Below, one piece after another: positions 51,085 to 61,557 of a DNA stretch of 64,000 bases (the first letter of the stretch is position 1; the number at the start of each line of letters is the position of its first letter). A program made the translations under genes and the position numbers. This DNA is from Clostridia bacterium (GTDB taxonomy: Bacteria; Bacillota; Clostridia; Oscillospirales; Acutalibacteraceae). The notes under the pieces are model-generated. The model made no database searches. It was given only the letters and a program-made list of their open reading frames with translations, and was not told the DNA's origin. The stretch covers positions 116,720 to 180,719 of the forward strand of contig JAFXAK010000024.1 of the NCBI GenBank assembly GCA_017517135.1, written 5' to 3'.

Positions 51085-51113
51085 TTTATTTTAAATATTT
51101 TTTATGTTAATAT
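51085..51113 (+). promoter_or_regulatory. Candidate promoter of dusB
   Basis: TTTATT (51085-51090), 17 nt, TAATAT (51108-51113) with TG at 51105-51106. The ATG at 51104 lies inside this promoter, supporting the TTG start further down. Confidence 0.45.
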
Positions 51114-51151
51114 ATCCGTTGTCAGATTCATTTTTTTCGGAGGATGTAATT

Positions 51152-52114
51152 TTGTTTATTGCAGATGTTGAAATTTCGGGATATTGTGCCTTAGCGCCTA
51201 TGGCAGGAGTTGCAGACAGAGCCTTCAGAGAGCTGTGTAAAAACTTCGGTGCGGCATATACCGTGGGTGAAATGGTAAGTGCCAAAGGTATCACAATGAA
51301 TGACAAAAAATCACAGGAGCTTTTAACAATTTCCGATTGTGAAAGACCGAGTGCGGTGCAGTTATTCGGAAATGTTCCCGAAATAATGGCAAAAGCCGCT
51401 GAATATTCCTTGAAATTCTCCCCCGAAATAATTGATATCAATATGGGCTGCCCGGCTCCTAAAGTCATCAAAAACGGCTGCGGCTCCGCATTGATGAAAG
51501 ACACAAAACTTGCAGGAGAAATAGTAAAAGCCGTTTCTGAGGCGGTAAATGTGCCCGTTACGGTTAAAATGAGAACAGGCTGGGATAAAGATTCTGTTAA
51601 CTGTGTTGAATTGGCAAAAACAGTTGAAGAAAACGGTGCGGCAGCAATATGCGTTCACGGCAGAACAAAGGAACAGATGTATACTCCCCCTGCCGATTTA
51701 GACTCAATAAAGGCTGTTAAATTGGCGGTGTCTATTCCCGTTATCGGCAACGGAGATATTTATACTCCCGAGGATGCAAAGAGAATGTATGACTACACAG
51801 GCTGTGACCTTGTAATGGTCGGCAGAGGTGCATTGGGTATGCCGTGGATTTTCGGACAGATAAATGAATATCTTGAAAAAGGCTCATACTCCCCCGCCCC
51901 CTCTGTTGAAGAACGAATGAAAATTATGCTCGGACACGCAAACAGAATCTGTGAGCTTCGCGGAGACAAAATCGGTATGTGTGAAATCAGAAAGCACGCT
52001 TTATGGTATACAAAAGGACTTAAAGGCTCTGCTAAACTGAGAAAAGAGTTAAGTACCGTACAAAATATGGACGAATTATATGAGCTTAGTAAAAAAATCG
52101 CTTCGGGACTGTAA
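51152..52114 (+). CDS. dusB: tRNA-dihydrouridine synthase, TTG start
   Basis: 320 residues of an FMN-dependent TIM barrel that reduces uridines in tRNA D-loops. Marks are CALAPMAGVADRAFREL near residue 12, the catalytic Cys in INMGCPAPKVIKNG near 95, VKMRTGWD near 138, ICVHGRTKEQ near 166 and IGNGDI followed by DLVMVGRGALG. The frame opens at ATG 51104, but TTG 51152 is preceded by CGGAGG at eight nt and gives the family N-terminus. It is a DusB-type enzyme by length. tRNA-Ser follows from its own promoter. Confidence 0.92.
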   Translation: MFIADVEISGYCALAPMAGVADRAFRELCKNFGAAYTVGEMVSAKGITMNDKKSQELLTISDCERPSAVQLFGNVPEIMAKAAEYSLKFSPEIIDINMGCPAPKVIKNGCGSALMKDTKLAGEIVKAVSEAVNVPVTVKMRTGWDKDSVNCVELAKTVEENGAAAICVHGRTKEQMYTPPADLDSIKAVKLAVSIPVIGNGDIYTPEDAKRMYDYTGCDLVMVGRGALGMPWIFGQINEYLEKGSYSPAPSVEERMKIMLGHANRICELRGDKIGMCEIRKHALWYTKGLKGSAKLRKELSTVQNMDELYELSKKIASGL

Positions 52115-52205: not shown

Positions 52206-52297
52206 GGAGAGTTGTCCGAGTTGGCCGAAGGAGCACGATTGGAAATCGTGTATACGTCATAAGCGTATCAAGGGTTCGAATCCCTTACTCTCCGCCA
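52206..52297 (+). tRNA. tRNA-Ser (anticodon GGA)
   Basis: A 92-nt class II tRNA. The acceptor arms GGAGAGT and ACTCTCC pair, discriminator G and encoded CCA follow; the D arm is CCGAGTTGGCCGAAGG, the anticodon loop TTGGAAA (GGA) sits in stem CACGA/TCGTG, the long variable arm is TACG...CGTA and the T arm GGGTTCGAATCCC. It reads UCC and UCU codons. Confidence 0.97.
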
Positions 52298-52298
52298 G

Positions 52299-52333
52299 AA
52301 AAAATCGACTTGCAATAGCAGGTCGATTTTTTT
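52299..52333 (+). terminator. Terminator of tRNA-Ser
   Basis: An AATCGACTTGC/GCAGGTCGATT stem with one G-U pair, followed by seven T. Confidence 0.85.
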
Positions 52334-52335
52334 AT

Positions 52336-52505
52336 CCATTGCGAAAGCAATGGTATATCATCACGCTTTAGCGTGTATATCATCGCCGAAGGCGTATATC
52401 ATCACACGAAGTGTGCATAAAGCTTTCGCAATGATGATATACAAGACTGTGTCTTGATGATATGCAATTCCTTACGGAATTGATGATATACACGGCTTTG
52501 CCGTG
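52336..52505. repeat. Array of seven different hairpins with a conserved linker
   Basis: Seven short perfect palindromes with unlike sequences are spaced by one linker. Stems: CCATTGC-GAAA-GCAATGG (52336), CACGC-TTTA-GCGTG (52362), CGCC-GAA-GGCG (52384), CACAC-GAA-GTGTG (52403), CAAGAC-TGT-GTCTTG (52442), CAATTCC-TTAC-GGAATTG (52465), CACGGC-TTT-GCCGTG (52491). The linker is TATATCATC after the first three and its complement GATGATATA (once ...TG) before the last three. CATTGCGAAAGC (52337-52348) is also complementary to GCTTTCGCAATG (52422-52433), so the two halves can fold on each other. Not a CRISPR and not coding. Confidence 0.85.
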
Positions 52506-52606
52506 ATTAATATGCAGTGGGTTAAATCCATACGCCAACAATTCAAATGACATCAAATTTATACAACCCCTTTTTATTAATGTAAAATCAAACATTATCC
52601 GCATAT
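52506..52606. other. A/T-rich spacer with no recognisable feature
   Basis: Between the hairpin array and the hairpin at 52607 I see no gene with a ribosome site, no promoter of quality and no repeat. Confidence 0.4.
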
Positions 52607-52647
52607 ACAACAAAACAACCGTCTTCAACAGGCGGTTGTTTTGTTGT
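52607..52647. terminator. Hairpin terminator downstream of the zinc-ribbon gene
   Basis: ACAACAAAACAACCG pairs with CGGTTGTTTTGTTGT (15 bp). The T-rich arm may replace a separate U tract; on the minus strand the stem lies 51 bases after the 52698 gene. Confidence 0.6.
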
Positions 52648-52697
52648 GTATAAATCTGAAACAAAAAACTTTGTCTTGCAATACTGAAATATTTTTA

Positions 52698-53609
52698 TTA
52701 TTTCACAATATCATTTTCAGCAGTTATAAGCTCACCTTTTTCATTCCATGAGGCTTCATCGGCTCGGTAATAAATATTTCCGTCATTATCCGCATACGGA
52801 TAATCGTAGTATTTATATTCTTTGTCATACAGCTCCATCAGATTATTGTAATATTCATCAAGCTCTTCTTCGGTCATCGAGGATGTATCCTCCTCGAAAA
52901 GCTCAAGAAGACCGCCTTTATCACAATAAAACCAGCCGTCTTCGGTCACATAGCAGTCATATATAAAGTATTTTTCTCCGTCCTCACTGACATAATAATA
53001 CTCATTATAACTAAAAAACTCATCTTCTTCATTTACCACCTCTTCAACTGAAAAGCTGTATATTTTTCCGTCTTTATCATACAAAAGCACACTTTGGTCG
53101 TCATTATAACTTTCACCCGTTTTGTCATAATAAATACCGTCTACGGGTATTCTCTCAATATAATCGATACTCATATCATCAAGACTGTCAATTATACTGT
53201 CAGTCATTGTCGCACCCCAGATTATACCTGTAGTTACAGCAGCTATAAGCATAATTATAATTAATATACCAAATACTTTGCTTAGTTTTTTCTCTTTTTT
53301 CTTTTCTTCTTCATTGATAGTCGGAAGTTCAATCAGACAATCAGAGCAAATCTGAAAGCTGTCTGCAAATTTTTTCCCGCACTGAGAGCATACTTTTGTA
53401 TTCGGTCCGGGAAAGTCTTTTCTTTTTATAAGAAAAATTATAAGTGTCCAGAATCCGAACAAAACACCGCATATGTACCAAGCTAATGAAAGCTGCTGAT
53501 TTCTGTACTTTGCCGAATAGTGCATAAAAAGTATAGACAATACAATAGTCAGCACCTCTAAAACACCTATCACGGGTAAAAATACCGTAAAATTAAATAA
53601 ATCGTCCAT
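52698..53609 (-). CDS. Zinc-ribbon membrane protein of unknown function
   Basis: 303 residues. Two membrane segments (about 8-30 and 38-60) come first, then a four-Cys zinc ribbon (CSQCGKKF...CSDCL) near 72-92, a Lys/Glu stretch, a third membrane segment (about 109-131) and an acidic outer domain of ~170 residues rich in Tyr and Asp (DNDGNIYYRADE; YDKTGESYNDDQ). No enzyme motif is seen. The preceding M28-like gene ends three bases before, and its GGAGGA stop region supplies the SD site. A sensor or assembly role is only a guess. Confidence 0.6.
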   Translation of the reverse strand: MDDLFNFTVFLPVIGVLEVLTIVLSILFMHYSAKYRNQQLSLAWYICGVLFGFWTLIIFLIKRKDFPGPNTKVCSQCGKKFADSFQICSDCLIELPTINEEEKKKEKKLSKVFGILIIIMLIAAVTTGIIWGATMTDSIIDSLDDMSIDYIERIPVDGIYYDKTGESYNDDQSVLLYDKDGKIYSFSVEEVVNEEDEFFSYNEYYYVSEDGEKYFIYDCYVTEDGWFYCDKGGLLELFEEDTSSMTEEELDEYYNNLMELYDKEYKYYDYPYADNDGNIYYRADEASWNEKGELITAENDIVK

Positions 53610-55183: not shown

Positions 55184-58100
55184 CTATTTTTTTAACAAAA
55201 AACTCTCTAAAACAGCCCTAAGCTTAGCAATAATATTCTTTAACATGTTAATTATATTATTGATGCTATTTTCAGAAGCTGTTTCACAGCTAAGCACTTC
55301 TCCCTGTTCACCCCAGTATGTTTTTCCGTTTTCATCCTTCATATAAGCACGCACAAGAAAACGGTATTCAGTGTCATGTTCAAGAGAAGTTATCTTATAG
55401 CTTCCGTTTTTTGTATCTGCGATTTTTGTCAGAGTTCCGCCTGTATCTACAGAATATACACGGTAAACAAGATCAGAATGGCCTTTTGTCCAGTTGAGAG
55501 TAATACTGTCAGCACTTAATGCATAAATCTCAGGTACAACAGCATCAATAATGATCTTATAATAAAGAGTTTTTCCGCCTGCATAATTACCGACATAATC
55601 AACCCTTACACTGTATTCACCGCAATATTTAGAATCAGATGAATAAGTAACCTTATAATCCCTGTTCAGGATTAAGGACACTCCTGTACTGTCTTTTACG
55701 GTAACAACGGGCTTCTGAACCTTACCGTTATAAGTTAACTTGCTGCTTGAAAGCTTTACTTCGCCGACCTTATAGATAACCGTTTTGTCGATGTTACTCA
55801 TACAAACATTATTTTTCTGAGTAAAAGTAATAGTAATATCTACACCGTCATTTGCCGTAGTAGCGGCAGAAAACTTATATGCAGTAACAGCAGAATCATC
55901 AACAATTATATCGTACTCACTGTGAGCAATAAGCTCACGCTTAACTACAGTTTCACCGCAGACAGAACAATGGCTCTGATGGGTGTAACCGGGCTCGGTG
56001 CTTGTGGGTGCAACAGCAGGAATGTCAATAACTTCAGTATGACCGAGGGGTTCAATAACGGTTATATCCGATCTTGTTTTACCGCAGTAGCAATGTCGGG
56101 TTTTAAGCCCCGGTTCAGTACAGGTCGGATTTTTTTCTGTTTCAAACTCCTTGTATTTATGTGATGAACTGCTTATTGTTTTTTCATAGCTGTAGCCGCA
56201 TTCACAGGTATATATTTCCTTACCTGCAGTATAGCATTTCTTTTCTCCATCAATTACGACGGTAAAGCTGTGAGCATGTCCCTGTATTTCATAATATGCA
56301 ATGTTGTTTTCAACAGCATATTTTTCGCCGTTGCTGCCTTTAATCGCATAAATCTTAACATTCAAGGGCAATGAGCCTAATGTGCATTCGGGCATCACAG
56401 GATTAAGAATGGTTATCTTTTTCAGACTTCTGCAATCATCAAATGCATTTGCTAAAACTACAGTGCCTTCAGTAATTTCAAACTCCCTGAGAGAGGTACA
56501 GCCCTTAAATGCACAGCCGTATATAGTTGAATTATCTCCGACATTCACCCTTACAAGAGCTATGTTCCCCTCGAAGGCAGACACACCTACAGTAGAATTC
56601 TCACTCACGGAAAGTGATTTTATTCCTGTGCATCCCTTAAAGGCATTGTTCCCGATTTCCACAGGATTTTGAAAAACTAAGTTTTCTATACTTATTTTCG
56701 TATTCTCAAAGGCAGAAATACCTATTTTCGAAACACTTTTAGGGATATTTATGCTTTCAAGTGATATACAATTATAAAAACTGCGAAAATCAATCGTTTT
56801 TACTTCCCCGTGAATTGTTACACTTTCAAGTGATGAACATTCGGAAAATACATTTGAGTTTATTGTTGTAAGGTTTTCAGGCAAGGTAATTTCAGTAAGA
56901 GCCGAACAATATTCAAAAGCATACATTCCGATTTCGGTGAGACTGTCACCAAAATCAATATTTTTAAGAGCCTTACAGTATTGGAACGCCGATGCCCCTA
57001 TTTCAGATACTGAATTTTCAAAAGTGATTTCCTCAAGCGCGTAGCAATATGAAAATGAATCATCACCTATTTTTACATTTTCACCCTTAAACTGTACCTT
57101 TTCAAGTGCTTCACATCCGTAAAAGGTGTCCCCGTAAAGAACTGTTACTTTTTCGGGAATGACAATTTCTCTGATGCTTTTACTGTTCAGAAAAGCCCTC
57201 TCGCCTATTTCTTCAAGGTTTTCAGGTAAGACAATCCCTTCAAGCCCACAGGATGCAAATGCTTGCTCGCCTATCTTCTCTAAGCACTCATTAAGCTTTA
57301 TCTCCCTAAGATCTGTACAACCGCAGAACATATAATCGGAAATTTCCGTCTGTTTTTCGGGAAAAGTAACATTTTTAAGATTTTTACAGTTATAAAAGAT
57401 TTTTTCTCCGAAGGTGATGTTATTTTCTCCGAATACAACTCTATCAAGATTTTCACAGTACAAAAAGGCTTCAGAGTCTATTTTATTCACGGATGAAGGC
57501 AAAATGATTTCCTTTAATTTGTAGCAATATTTGAAGGCACTTGCTCCTATTTGCTCAAGACCTGTTGCTTCACTTAAATCAACTTCAGTCAGATTTGTAC
57601 AATCCATAAAAGCACTTTTGCCTATAAATTTTACATTTGACGGTATTTTTATTGATGTGAGATCAGCCGACGAAAAGGCATTGTTGCCAATTTCAATAAG
57701 ACTTTCGGGAAGCTCAACCTCTTTTAATTTATTTGCTCTCAAAGCTCCGGATTCTATTTTTGTAATGCCATCTTCAATTATAAGCTTTTCAACATTGCAG
57801 CCCCATCTGTAAAGCATATTCTCTCCGATAACCGTTACCTTTTTACCGTCGAATTCAGACGGAATAGTCAAAATCTTTTCAGATGATATATATCGCCTCA
57901 GTCTGAGTGTTCCATCGGATAAAATTTCACTGTCAAATATATTGGTTTCTCTGAATATAAGACTGCTGCTTGTGCTGTTATATGTAATAATATAGGTTTC
58001 TCCTGCTGTAAAGCTATAGCTGAAGGAATCCGAAAAATAACCCTTGGTGCCGTTATTATCCGGCAGTGTTAAATGTATAGTGCTTGCATTTTCAAACACA

Positions 58101-61100
58101 AAGTAGTAAACTCTTGATTCCTTGGGAATAAAACGGATTGTATTATAATTTCTGCTATCAAACTCAAGCACACTGCCCTCAACAAAATCCAGCGTTTTTG
58201 TTTCCTCACTCGGTACATCCGGATTTTCTTCCTCAACAGTTACAGCAAAAGTTACTTCCAGCCCTTTATAAACAATTACAGGATTATATGTACCCGCCTT
58301 TGTTAAATCCGTATCGTTCACATTAACAGTAAAACCACTCGTAAGGTCAATATAAGCCCCGTTACCGAAATAAACCCTTAAAACAATACCCTTTGTGTCA
58401 ATTTTTGACGCTTTTTCTGAAACATAATATATGCTTTTTGTCGGCGTAGTTACTACCTCAATTCTGACAGGCTCCTCAGAAACATCAATACCCTTAAAGG
58501 TATAACCGTATTCAAGTGCAAAGCTATGAGCCTTTGAACCTGTAGCAGCATATATAACCGTTGTCTTCGGAATTGCGGGATACTTCTTGCCGTCCTGTGT
58601 ATAAACACCTGCAATTGTAATATCCTTATTGCATACAGTAAGCTCATCAAGCTCAGTACATCCGTAAAATGCTTTTGCTTTTATCTGTGTTACATTTTCA
58701 CCCAAAGTTATTTCCGTAAGACCTGTACACTCTCTGAATGCAGCAACGCCGATACTTGTAATATTTGAAGGCATGTCAACAGTTTTAAGAGCAATACATT
58801 TTTTGAACATCTGCTTCGGAATTTCTGTAAGTCCTGCGGACAAGGTAACACTTTCCAAAGCTGTACAGTTCTGAAAAACTCCTACACCAAAATTATCTGT
58901 TTTTGAAGACATTATAACTTCTTTCAATGCCGTGCAGTGCGCAAAAGCAAAATCCGATATCTTGCCCGAGCAATCAAGATTCACCTGTGTGAGAGATGTG
59001 CATTTAATAAAGGCCTCTTCACCTATACTTGAAACCTTTTTCCAAGGAACCTCTTTCAGAGCCGAACAGTAAGCAAAGCTATGATATTCAGTATAAAGCT
59101 TGCCCGATGATGTCGTGACACTTACAAGTGCACTACACTTTTCAAACATACCTTCACTTACGGTAGCAAAATCTGCAAGATCTGCCGTTATAAGTTTGAT
59201 ACAATTATAAAACACATAGTTTCCGCATTTTTTTACTTTTTCAGACAGTTTTACATAAGTAAGTCTGCTGCAGCCTGTAAAAGCATAGTCTCCGATATAT
59301 TCCGTATTGTCAGGTAATACAAGACTTTCAAAAGCATCACATTCTGCAAAGGCTCTTTCACCTATTTTGTAAATAGTGTCAGGGAAAGCAGGCACTTGTA
59401 ATTTTCTGCAATTTTCAAAAGCAGACTTACCTACGGAAATAATTATGTTTGACAATTCTATATTTGTAAGATTTTTGCAATTATAAAAGGCAAAATCACC
59501 TATTTCGGTAATTCCGTTTTCAAGCTTAACGCTCTCAATACTTGACATACCGCTGAAAAGAGCTTCTCCGATTTTGCTGACCGTTCCTTTGACAGTTATC
59601 CTTTTAACCTGGTTTTCGTTTATCAGTGCATTCCATTTTGCTGCTTCCTGCTCATCAACGGCTTTTCCTATTTCCCCGCTGCCGTAAATTACAAGCTCAT
59701 CTTCATTATGTAAAATCCACACGCCGTTTTCAATAACACCGCTGTCTGCAATATTATCGTTTTCGGGAACATTTTCACCGCATATTGTGCATACACCGTC
59801 AATTAAAGTTTCAGAGTGCTGAATTTCCGATGAAATACCGTAACCTAATTTCCATGTGTTGCATTTTTCACACCACTGACCGTCCTTATAATTAAGCGTA
59901 CCGTCGCAAAAACTCGGTTTTCCTGCAACAAAAATTGTATCTTCACATAAACAGAGACGGTAAAAAGTCAAATCATTATCTTTTGCATATTTTTCTGCCG
60001 TTGAGCCTTCCAAAGCCATAACCGAGCAGTTTGAGGGCAGAGAACTTATAAAACAGTCCGGATTTTCAATAATAATTCTGTCACCCTGATTAAAAATTCC
60101 TGATGCAACGGAATTAACACTCTTATCAACAAAAACATAACCGTTTTTATTACAGTTAACAAGACAACCCGATACAACAAGAAGACCGTCTTTGTAGTTT
60201 GATTCATCATTTATAAAGGGAGTTTTACCGAAAACCTGAGGCTTTATATCTATATGCTCCCCTTTAATTGCAACCCTTGAAAGATTAGGGCAATCGTAAA
60301 AGGCTGACTGTCCTATTATTTTAACATTCTCACCGAAAGTAACGCTTTCAAGATAGTTCAAGTACGAAAAAGCCCAACTGTCAATTTCATTTATATCTCC
60401 ACCGATAATAATATTAACAAACTTATGGGAATCACTTAGGGGCATTGTCAGTTTACCCGTACCGAAAAACAAAACAGTTCCGTCTTCTTTTTCACACCAA
60501 AAAACATTCTGATTTAACACGCCGGAATCAATAATTTTCTCATCAGTGCTCAACTCACAGTAGTCACAAATTGCATCTTCATTTTCGTCCATGTGATTGA
60601 ATACTGCCTCTTCTTCGTGACCTGAAATCCAGATACCGCAAGTTTCACACCATACCCCCTCACTGTAACCTACAGTTCCGTTACAATAGGTTTTTGTTGC
60701 CTCTACAACCTGTATGTTTTCACAGGTGCAGTAATACTCAAAGGGGTTACCGAAGGAGTTTGCATACCTTTCTGCATCAGAGCCGACTCTGCCTTTAAGA
60801 ATTGTATTTCTACCAAAAGTAGAATTTTGTATTGTCTGATAACAGAATTTTAAGTTTTCAAAGGTTATTTTCGGAATTTCACTGTCTGCACCGAAGCAAC
60901 CCTGCGCAATAGTGGTAATATTCTTTCCGATATAAAGTTCCTCTGAGCCTCTGCCGGCTATAAGTGCATCAGAAATAATCAAGAGTCCGTTATTCCAGTT
61001 TTCCTCGTTTTCAAAAAGAGGACAGTCACGAAATGCGCCGAACTTAATATCTATAGCCGCACCGAGAATTTCTGCCTTTTCAAGTCCTGTATTTTCCAGA

Positions 61101-61516
61101 CCTTCGATGCTGTTTACATATTTCGGAATAACAATGCTTTTAAGCTCTTTACAGTTATCAAAAGCCCCTGCTAAAATTTTTTTAACAGGAAATGAGCCTA
61201 TTTTTTCAAGAATAACAACATCAGACGGCATATTTTCACCTGCACCGACGACCTCAGCATAAAGGCTTTGTGTGTGGTACACTACTCCGTCAATCGTATA
61301 AGTGCTGAATTCTTCATATTCAGGCTCATTTACTGCTTCTGTATTGGTAGTTTGGTCTTCTGTTACCGGCTCTGTTTCATATATAGCAGTCTGCTCTTGA
61401 GCAGTACCGTTTTCTCCGTTCGCGGTTGTCTCAATAGCACATATATTCAAAGGCAAGGATGTAAAAATTATAAGTATAACAAGCAACAGGCTGATTATCC
61501 TTTTAATGTTAAACAT
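55184..61516 (-). CDS. Giant BspA-like leucine-rich-repeat surface protein
   Basis: 2110 residues. A signal peptide ends near residue 27 (SLPLNICA). Three blocks of LRR_5/BspA-type repeats follow (about 60-240, 350-520 and 640-1030), a Big_3-like Ig domain (~1045-1120) and a further long LRR block (~1210-1670) of the form AF..C..L..I.LP..V..IG. Cys-rich inserts (CETCGIW; CDYC; CEKCN; CTICG) separate the blocks, and a segment near 1690-1780 has the PTCTEPGLKTRHC motif of gut Firmicutes surface proteins. A fibronectin-III-like domain (~1990-2075) precedes a C-terminal amphipathic helix, IINMLKNIIAKL. There is no LPXTG. Adhesion to host or other cells is the usual role. ATG 61516 has AAGGAGG. 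Confidence 0.88.
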   Translation of the reverse strand: MFNIKRIISLLLVILIIFTSLPLNICAIETTANGENGTAQEQTAIYETEPVTEDQTTNTEAVNEPEYEEFSTYTIDGVVYHTQSLYAEVVGAGENMPSDVVILEKIGSFPVKKILAGAFDNCKELKSIVIPKYVNSIEGLENTGLEKAEILGAAIDIKFGAFRDCPLFENEENWNNGLLIISDALIAGRGSEELYIGKNITTIAQGCFGADSEIPKITFENLKFCYQTIQNSTFGRNTILKGRVGSDAERYANSFGNPFEYYCTCENIQVVEATKTYCNGTVGYSEGVWCETCGIWISGHEEEAVFNHMDENEDAICDYCELSTDEKIIDSGVLNQNVFWCEKEDGTVLFFGTGKLTMPLSDSHKFVNIIIGGDINEIDSWAFSYLNYLESVTFGENVKIIGQSAFYDCPNLSRVAIKGEHIDIKPQVFGKTPFINDESNYKDGLLVVSGCLVNCNKNGYVFVDKSVNSVASGIFNQGDRIIIENPDCFISSLPSNCSVMALEGSTAEKYAKDNDLTFYRLCLCEDTIFVAGKPSFCDGTLNYKDGQWCEKCNTWKLGYGISSEIQHSETLIDGVCTICGENVPENDNIADSGVIENGVWILHNEDELVIYGSGEIGKAVDEQEAAKWNALINENQVKRITVKGTVSKIGEALFSGMSSIESVKLENGITEIGDFAFYNCKNLTNIELSNIIISVGKSAFENCRKLQVPAFPDTIYKIGERAFAECDAFESLVLPDNTEYIGDYAFTGCSRLTYVKLSEKVKKCGNYVFYNCIKLITADLADFATVSEGMFEKCSALVSVTTSSGKLYTEYHSFAYCSALKEVPWKKVSSIGEEAFIKCTSLTQVNLDCSGKISDFAFAHCTALKEVIMSSKTDNFGVGVFQNCTALESVTLSAGLTEIPKQMFKKCIALKTVDMPSNITSIGVAAFRECTGLTEITLGENVTQIKAKAFYGCTELDELTVCNKDITIAGVYTQDGKKYPAIPKTTVIYAATGSKAHSFALEYGYTFKGIDVSEEPVRIEVVTTPTKSIYYVSEKASKIDTKGIVLRVYFGNGAYIDLTSGFTVNVNDTDLTKAGTYNPVIVYKGLEVTFAVTVEEENPDVPSEETKTLDFVEGSVLEFDSRNYNTIRFIPKESRVYYFVFENASTIHLTLPDNNGTKGYFSDSFSYSFTAGETYIITYNSTSSSLIFRETNIFDSEILSDGTLRLRRYISSEKILTIPSEFDGKKVTVIGENMLYRWGCNVEKLIIEDGITKIESGALRANKLKEVELPESLIEIGNNAFSSADLTSIKIPSNVKFIGKSAFMDCTNLTEVDLSEATGLEQIGASAFKYCYKLKEIILPSSVNKIDSEAFLYCENLDRVVFGENNITFGEKIFYNCKNLKNVTFPEKQTEISDYMFCGCTDLREIKLNECLEKIGEQAFASCGLEGIVLPENLEEIGERAFLNSKSIREIVIPEKVTVLYGDTFYGCEALEKVQFKGENVKIGDDSFSYCYALEEITFENSVSEIGASAFQYCKALKNIDFGDSLTEIGMYAFEYCSALTEITLPENLTTINSNVFSECSSLESVTIHGEVKTIDFRSFYNCISLESINIPKSVSKIGISAFENTKISIENLVFQNPVEIGNNAFKGCTGIKSLSVSENSTVGVSAFEGNIALVRVNVGDNSTIYGCAFKGCTSLREFEITEGTVVLANAFDDCRSLKKITILNPVMPECTLGSLPLNVKIYAIKGSNGEKYAVENNIAYYEIQGHAHSFTVVIDGEKKCYTAGKEIYTCECGYSYEKTISSSSHKYKEFETEKNPTCTEPGLKTRHCYCGKTRSDITVIEPLGHTEVIDIPAVAPTSTEPGYTHQSHCSVCGETVVKRELIAHSEYDIIVDDSAVTAYKFSAATTANDGVDITITFTQKNNVCMSNIDKTVIYKVGEVKLSSSKLTYNGKVQKPVVTVKDSTGVSLILNRDYKVTYSSDSKYCGEYSVRVDYVGNYAGGKTLYYKIIIDAVVPEIYALSADSITLNWTKGHSDLVYRVYSVDTGGTLTKIADTKNGSYKITSLEHDTEYRFLVRAYMKDENGKTYWGEQGEVLSCETASENSINNIINMLKNIIAKLRAVLESFLLKK

Positions 61517-61557
61517 AACCTTTTCCTCCTTTTTCTTTCTCATTTATAAGTATATCA

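Follow-up and report, generated by a model that had tools for sequence, protein, structure and literature searches.

A close described relative of the array analysed here is Gut-1 (Rfam RF01706), whose model holds three "word + hairpin" units in the same orientation, with the word GTGAAAT. In the parts of the 2010 report that treat it, Gut-1 comes from human gut metagenomes only and is placed among the motifs most likely expressed as non-coding RNAs; it is read there as an RNA, without a tRNA or S23 context, and its model covers one half of an array only (PMC2864571). A second relative is the intervening sequence (IVS) of Coxiella. According to passages of the paper on it, tandem heptamers lie directly upstream of its S23p gene and the element has terminal inverted repeats; S23p was inferred not to be made in vivo and the RNA to matter more (PMC4990558). 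The Xanthomonas S23 ring, cited from others in the same passages, is pentameric (PMC4990558). STRR-like heptanucleotide repeats of cyanobacteria and xanthomonads, as described in part of PMC4692102, are intergenic words of about 7 nt that often form inverted pairs; the passages searched in two heptamer-repeat papers, PMC4692102 among them, contain neither "S23" nor "four helix". Within the open-licence PMC literature, we found no paper that ties S23 or four-helix-bundle genes to word arrays in general; the Coxiella paper describes heptamers for its own IVS alone. REP, BIME and REPIN sequences, which have RAYT as a cognate gene, are described as dispersed extragenic palindromic units in both orientations, and REP palindromes carry a GTAG or CGTC tag at their foot. 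Avd, a protein of diversity-generating retroelements (DGRs), is a four-helix-bundle relative of S23 and works with a reverse transcriptase.

The array lies in a window of 64,000 nucleotides (the whole stretch of DNA that was analysed; C17:116720-180719 of its own genome, G000). The features around and within it are as follows.

51104..52114, + strand: dus gene (dihydrouridine synthase), upstream neighbour (Pfam PF01207, E 4.5e-100)
52206..52297, + strand: tRNA-Ser (GGA) (ARAGORN; RF00005, 53.7 bits)
52299..52332, + strand: symmetric terminator-like stem (A-run...T-run) that abuts the array (inverted repeat I3, arms 52299-52313 / 52318-52332)
52336..52353, + strand: hairpin 1, CCATTGC-GAAA-GCAATGG
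52354..52361, + strand: word 1, TATATCAT
52362..52375, + strand: hairpin 2, CACGC-TTTA-GCGTG
52376..52383, + strand: word 2, TATATCAT
52384..52394, + strand: hairpin 3, CGCC-GAA-GGCG
52395..52402, + strand: word 3, TATATCAT
52403..52415, + strand: hairpin 4, CACAC-GAA-GTGTG
52422..52433, + strand: core or turning point, reverse complement of the 5' arm and loop of hairpin 1 (inverted repeat I5)
52434..52441, - strand: word 1' (ATGATATA on the + strand)
52442..52456, - strand: hairpin 5
52457..52464, - strand: word 2' (ATGATATG on the + strand)
52465..52482, - strand: hairpin 6
52483..52490, - strand: word 3' (ATGATATA on the + strand)
52491..52505, - strand: hairpin 7, followed by GATT (a right end common among copies)
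52603..52651, no strand assigned: second terminator-like inverted repeat (I2, 22-nt arms, 91% complementary)
52698..53609, - strand: 303-aa ORF, convergent neighbour, without a Pfam match

The element spans about 52334-52508, starts at the T-run of the symmetric stem 3' of tRNA-Ser(GGA), the gene after which a preliminary description had placed it, and ends in GATT. The seven unlike hairpins of that description are all present and every one is perfectly paired, the shortest being hairpin 3. Six hairpins with a stem of at least 5 pairs and a loop of 3-5 nt were counted in the element, against a mean of 0.68 and a maximum of 4 in 1,000 dinucleotide shuffles, and the element is the densest 175-nt stretch for hairpins within the window. 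Its folding z-scores are -9.4 (DNA) and -7.8 (RNA), with none of 200 shuffles folding equally well. The hairpin array is far above chance. The sequence between the hairpins had been presented as a conserved 9-nt linker whose orientation flips in mid-array. It reads TATATCATC three times in the left half, and GATGATATA twice and GATGATATG once in the right half, so conservation and flip both hold, apart from one change in one copy. Because the hairpins open with C and close with G, the word is better given as 8 nt, TATATCAT / ATGATATA; it occurs three times on the left and as its reverse complement on the right (ATGATATA twice, ATGATATG once). The 12-bp inverted repeat 52337-52348 / 52422-52433 is exact, but it is not an outer frame tying the halves together: its second arm is a truncated copy of hairpin 1 at the turning point. 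On the opposite strand, the right half consists again of "word + hairpin" units, the last of which is this truncated hairpin 1. The window array is two oppositely oriented runs of one "word + hairpin" unit. It was rightly set apart from CRISPR, as its variable parts are palindromes from a shared vocabulary, not unique spacers between a constant repeat.

A terminator scan flagged neither of the A-run/T-run stems (52299-52332; 52603-52651), so that "terminator" is here a reading of such stems. Promoter-like sites at the window array show no excess over shuffles, and no rRNA match was found within the 64-kb window. At 52517-52539, 3' of the array, GTGGGTTAAATCCATACGCCAAC resembles a decayed tRNA T-arm and 3' end, and similar stretches lie behind some other copies. 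Elsewhere in the window, 55184-61543 (- strand) encodes a protein of 2119 aa that has BspA-like leucine-rich repeats and, more weakly, matches Ig-like and fibronectin type III domains.

A 201-nt query from the locus matched 11 of the 27 genus genomes, G006 by 29 bases only. In the GTDB collection, the left-end pattern was found in at least 119 stretches; among the 80 matches listed, 79 are titled Clostridia or groups within, one (Buttiauxella) is a chance match, and many come from ruminant gut. From all loci we collected 131 distinct pattern-matching arrays, nearly all from Clostridia. Nine of them hold fewer than three words in total, including the chance matches L221 and L254, and were kept in the counts of position, ORFs and pairing. 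An absence of other copies together with a loss of pairing had been named as the outcome that would speak against a family. Copies are many and pairing is kept, and the family reading stands. In the array collection, pairing is perfect over the full length of the hairpin in 163 of 214 left and 159 of 188 right units. The outer positions of distinct units pair in 93% (left) and 97% (right) of cases, compared with 76% and 74% when 3' arms were swapped among units of equal length (maximum 80% and 79% over 500 rounds). In 117 copies, 1051 of the 1170 positions compared between hairpin 1 and the core match, whereas swapping among copies gives 65%. Stems vary while their pairing is kept, and the word is kept in sequence; the earlier idea that structure rather than sequence is maintained therefore applies to the stems and not to the linker.

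The stems come from a limited vocabulary, and many hairpins are found again unchanged. Exchange of whole hairpins from this shared vocabulary accounts for part of the covariation, which leaves selected and generated pairing unseparated. Such recurrence would fit a mutational product, in which palindromes are perfected by replication template switching without mobility or a protein, and template-directed correction would keep pairing as observed. This explanation leaves the tRNA position, the kept words, the recurrent plan and the S23 link described below unaccounted for, and we consider it highly improbable. The loops give the unit a strand. On the word strand, 95 of 163 left and 115 of 159 right hairpins have a C-GNA-G or C-GNNA-G loop, whereas the corresponding opposite-strand class is found in none on the left and one on the right. 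GNA loops of the C-GNA-G kind are unusually stable in single-stranded DNA. The loop type leans towards a single-stranded DNA form and proves nothing in this respect. DNA and RNA energy models agree on a predicted spine in which word 1 pairs with 3', word 2 with 2' and word 3 with 1'. In this predicted fold, hairpins 2/6 and 3/5 are opposite arms of four-way junctions off the word spine, which is flanked by hairpins 1 and 7. An alternative predicted pairing joins the first arm of hairpin 1 to the core.

Position relative to tRNA genes was counted on 125 arrays, as 6 of the 131 have less than 130 nt upstream. Of these, 69 lie 26-40 nt 3' of a tRNA gene found by ARAGORN, covering 16 amino-acid types, and 116 have a stem of at least 7 pairs within the last 60 nt before the array. 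Some other arrays lie behind an apparent tRNA 3' fragment, the remnant that later insertion of an integrative element into the tRNA gene would be expected to leave. Of 24 tRNA or tRNA-cluster ends in the window's own genome, 10 hold at least 5 perfect hairpins in 330 nt, compared with 2 of 193 window tiles, one of which is the window array. Arrays at so many tRNA ends bear on the reading of tRNA-linked variable regions in gut Clostridia. By eye, the word types at these ends are A (the type of the window), B (TATGTAATC), C (ATTATTCATT), AATGAAG and GAAATA/ATTTCAT. The linker alone has 57 matches in this genome, mostly solitary; apart from the window array, a cluster at C17:35k and one hairpin-flanked word in L019 were conspicuous. 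At L009 1908-2115, a second array with the words TATGTAATC / GATTACAT follows an S23 gene and a small ORF beside the genome's second type-A copy. Five tRNA ends of this genome (L429, L430, L437, L440, L443) show two near-identical stem variants (TGAGTATTCA ... TGAATACTCA) behind different tRNA genes, and the recurring terminator-like stems look as if terminators too were copied between loci.

The tRNA-Ser site was read by eye in 12 informative relatives. It is empty in G001, G013 and G016, and six relatives have other words there: TGATAT arrays (the A word with left and right swapped) in G002 and G014, GTGAAATC in G007 and G023, AATGAAG in G009 and another word in G020. Decayed A-like arrays occupy the site in G010, G015 and G018. 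The preliminary description had proposed a family of structured mobile repeats, and this holds as far as dispersal goes: with many copies, tRNA 3' ends as sites, and sites that are empty or differently occupied, the array family has very probably dispersed. We saw no transposition, target duplication or excision; the species with empty sites are too distant for exact ends to be read. Searches with the array DNA gave no match in a phage collection and two 34-nt matches (E 0.2) in a plasmid collection. Four pattern matches were found in viral contigs: two are due to chance, and the other two, whose flanks are identical, were judged by eye to be true arrays that follow a tRNA 3' fragment.

The same position could mark elements that serve the host as insulators or as topological or nucleoid sites next to highly transcribed tRNA genes. 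Gene conversion would have spread such elements and selection on structure would maintain them, S23 genes being passengers. Hairpin arrays at 10 of 24 tRNA ends, the stem adjoining the array in 116 of 125 copies, the kept pairing and the lack of an S23 gene at most copies agree with this. Against it, the tRNA-Ser site has no array in 3 of 12 relatives and other words in 6, the words differ between loci of one genome, and word arrays of the same logic also occur within gene clusters and within the genes for 23S rRNA and RNase P RNA (see below). We regard a host function of this kind as unlikely.

The halves of an array appear to be exchangeable. At tRNA-His, G003 and G005 have the same right half and tail but a different left half and terminator-like stem, and the left half of G003 nearly matches the left half at its own tRNA-Cys; these patterns indicate that array halves have been exchanged. 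The suggestion that the array is a recombination substrate is borne out to this extent, for the right half that two species have in common. A more specific version is that the arrays are recombination sites that join promoter-gene cassettes behind tRNA genes, through an integron-like or other tyrosine recombinase. Consistent with this, different genes with a promoter-like box come after the right ends, and the downstream DNA changes at the array right end between G003:C40 and G005:C30. Moreover, at tRNA-His, S23 and a second, NUDIX-like gene stand between the array and a carrier gene in G008, whereas the carrier gene directly follows the array in G003, G004 and G005. All 27 genomes encode tyrosine recombinases that score below the integron cut-off. 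Two results speak against cassettes. No integron integrase (TIGR02249) exceeds the curated cut-off in any of the 27 genomes, on which count integron attC sites were rejected, and the ORFs behind arrays, S23 apart, are one triplet, two pairs and singletons. We give this explanation little credence; tyrosine recombinases other than an integron integrase could still be players.

Behind type-A arrays, one gene family stands out. After 21 arrays without an ORF, 14 without a recognised right word and 3 short ones had been left out of the 131, 93 ORFs remained, and 17 of them are one family, the S23/23S_rRNA_IVP protein (PF05635/TIGR02436). The next family consists of 3 carrier genes at one orthologous locus, followed by two pairs and singletons (auxin-carrier-like and NUDIX-like are names given by eye). 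This link is absent from the preliminary description and is added here. Each of the three S23 genes in the window's own genome is preceded by a tRNA and a word array; none lies 3' of the window copy, the PF05635 genes of this genome being only C17:35231, C21:25958 and C22:55610. Genomes with arrays have an A-type S23 in 5 of 11 cases, compared with 0 of 16 other genomes (p 0.006); by the criterion of 80% identity, the remaining six array genomes (G001, G004, G005, G006, G010, G015) have none. The A-type genes lie behind tRNA-Gln (G000), tRNA-Cys (G003) and tRNA-His (G008), behind further arrays after tRNA-Val (G002), and at a site in G013 where no tRNA was found.

The words before these genes go with the protein at close range. 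Upstream of the five S23 genes with at least 80% identity to the A type stand 4-6 A words and no B word, whereas the four genes at 62-64% identity are preceded by 4-7 B words and by one A word at most. Two genes at only 45-48% identity (G002:C40 and C42) also have 7-8 A-like words, in which the left and right orientations are exchanged, and the word is thus no unique mark of a protein clade. Among the own-genome words, AATGAAG (4 tRNA ends) and GAAATA/ATTTCAT (2 tRNA ends) have no S23 gene of their own among the three of this genome. Genus-wide, word and protein similarity correlate (r 0.488; 0 of 2000 permutations reached it). Below 60% protein identity, r is 0.156 for upstream and 0.151 for downstream words; the correlation is not upstream-specific in this range, so the coupling of S23 to its word rested on the nine genes above. 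Joint descent would also yield a match of word and S23 at close range. The PDB relatives of S23, 2RLD and 2GSC, have five chains each. S23 proteins are not known to have a catalytic activity. From these observations, we infer that S23 may be a trans-acting factor for the arrays, a proposal that we see as evenly balanced. If it is true, S23/23S_rRNA_IVP proteins would gain a testable function.

Taken together, we prefer to see in the window array a non-autonomous copy, lacking the gene, of a mobile repeat element linked to S23. Such elements would settle immediately 3' of tRNA terminators. We place this reading slightly on the probable side; the array genomes without a matching S23 gene, the lack of specific coupling among distant S23 relatives and the inference that Coxiella S23p is not made in vivo count against it. 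The mobile element would consist of an S23 gene with inverted arrays of its word, with gene-less copies such as that of the window. The words would be putative binding sites for the S23 ring. The hairpins may be spacers that fold out of single-stranded DNA or RNA and so make the words contiguous, which would leave the stems free to change if they still pair, the feature that the preliminary description had pointed out. In an alternative folded form, the words may pair word-to-word as a spine with four-way junctions. The folded form would be what is copied and inserted, and array halves may recombine with one another. On this evidence, a Y1 transposase, a reverse transcriptase or an integron integrase is not required.

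Gut-1 could place the array in another light, as a structured non-coding RNA of the kind that the sister type was read as in 2010. The window array aligns on the minus strand (52350-52425) to the whole Gut-1 model (positions 1-77 of 77) with 27.3 bits and E 0.001, below the gathering score of 50 bits, its word TGATGATAT standing against GTGAAAT. Gut-1 exceeds its cut-off in 24 of 27 genus genomes; among 14 control genomes, only E. coli gives a signal, which is below the cut-off. One of 20 type-A loci contains Gut-1 above threshold (L070, in a second element next to the A array); among 20 loci whose arrays use other words, 10 contain it, in arrays linked to tRNA genes and ahead of S23 genes. 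The matches coincide with array halves behind tRNA genes at L442 (116-190), L444 (108-184), L271 (1689-1761) and L279, and lie before S23 genes at L334, L341, L342 and L345. Such coincidence, the high number of matches per genome (up to 77 in G002 at E <= 0.001) and the position of the unit on opposite strands in the two halves of one array all argue against an RNA gene. The RNA scaffold that had been suggested for the window copy likewise finds little support, as the copy lies between terminator-like repeats and without an excess of promoters. An RNA role is nonetheless conceivable, because the sister type is catalogued as a non-coding RNA; as an explanation of the array, we rate it as very unlikely. 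What the present analysis adds to Gut-1 is the inverted second half, the tRNA site and the S23 link. If the S23-linked element is real, the Gut-1 "RNA" of Rfam would be re-read as half of a dispersed repeat array.

Another possible origin lies in REP- or BIME-like palindromes that are mobilised, as hairpins in single-stranded DNA, by a Y1 (HUH) transposase of the RAYT or IS200/IS605 type. Like them, the window family is dispersed and consists of oriented palindromic units in two orientations, here with strand-consistent loops, and Y1 matches occur in 17 of 27 genus genomes. Unlike them, the arrays are linked to S23 and have varying stems with a constant linker; no GTAG or CGTC tag stands beside the stems, where the words are TATATCAT / ATGATATA. 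No Y1 gene recurs behind arrays, and two genomes with arrays, G004 (6 array matches, 90% complete) and G010 (12 array matches, 86% complete), have no Y1 match (PF01797), for which reason a Y1 transposase was rejected as a needed mover. A Y1-driven origin thus seems scarcely probable. A reverse transcriptase was rejected in the same role: G000, G002, G003 and G013, all incomplete genomes, have arrays and no PF00078 (RVT_1) match.

S23 genes are accompanied by repeated words beyond type A. In the genus, 78 S23 genes were considered and 3 were dropped for a short upstream region or protein. Some 7-mer occurs at least four times in the 300 nt upstream of 46 of the remaining 75, compared with 1 of 54 control ORFs and 2 of 375 shuffles; the other 29 have no 7-mer four times upstream. 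For other clades, we took 14 plasmid genes, 11 of them cyanobacterial, by our own choice from at least 52 listed matches and examined 29 of the phylum loci returned, of which 3 below the cut-off were set apart, leaving 26. Inverted arms were tested by local alignment, exact 7-mer sharing (10 of 29 phylum loci) being too strict for mismatched words. For 12 of 14 plasmid genes, 16 of 26 phylum genes and 29 of 75 genus genes, the upstream and downstream flanks show more inverted complementarity than any shuffle, compared with 3 of 62 control ORFs; 2 plasmid, 10 phylum and 46 genus genes fail this test. Direct similarity of the flanks exceeds all shuffles in 4 of 14, 5 of 26 and 4 of 75 genes, respectively, and in 1 of 62 control ORFs. 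The plasmid S23 genes occupy gaps of gene clusters and are flanked by a short word repeated on one side and its reverse complement repeated on the other; they separate functionally linked genes, with cas6/cas4 (twice), cas2/cas1, ribonucleotide reductase genes and hsdS/hsdR as the positions at L377, L383, L390, L381 and L388. On one plasmid, at least 8 shared inverted 7-mers are seen at 10 of the 41 genes, and the S23 gene is the highest with 31. Most of the plasmid S23 genes examined lie between arrays of the STRR-like kind. STRR words, however, are contiguous head-to-tail 7-nt words, whereas the window words have 8 nt and are split by hairpins of 11-18 nt.

Seven phylum loci that had been picked by eye as RNA-gene-like were compared with Rfam; five are inside 23S rRNA and two inside RNase P RNA. 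In the latter two, both from Bacillota (L407 in G074 and L409 in G148), the RNase P RNA gene holds an S23/IVP gene between two arms of complementary word arrays, an arrangement that resembles the intervening sequences of 23S rRNA. The 23S rRNA IVS encodes the same protein family (PF05635/TIGR02436) as the gene linked to type A, and in the Bacillota loci examined here its S23 genes have word arrays as arms. The window array, with complementary arms of short repeated words in the predicted fold, is similar in this respect. It differs in that it has no S23 frame, lies outside RNA genes including 23S rRNA, and has its words split by hairpins.

These likenesses allow a wider and more tentative proposal. 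S23/IVP proteins and word arrays (STRR-like heptamers, Gut-1 and other hairpin-spaced arrays, and the arms of rRNA and RNase P intervening sequences) could be one superfamily of minimal mobile elements, in which a ring protein without a catalytic site of its own goes with inverted arrays of its putative binding word, and which insert at stem tips or just behind terminators. An insert placed in this way within an RNA gene would lengthen a helix and so be tolerated. The tRNA-linked hairpin arrays would then be gene-less descendants. We consider this superfamily possible, though short of probable; if it exists, heptamer repeats, rRNA and RNase P intervening sequences and tRNA-linked hairpin arrays would have one cause. 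The three phylum loci set apart above (L417, L418, L419) have PF05635 matches below the cut-off that are bounded by long direct repeats, the setting in which a DGR Avd gene, flanked by variable and template regions, would be expected.
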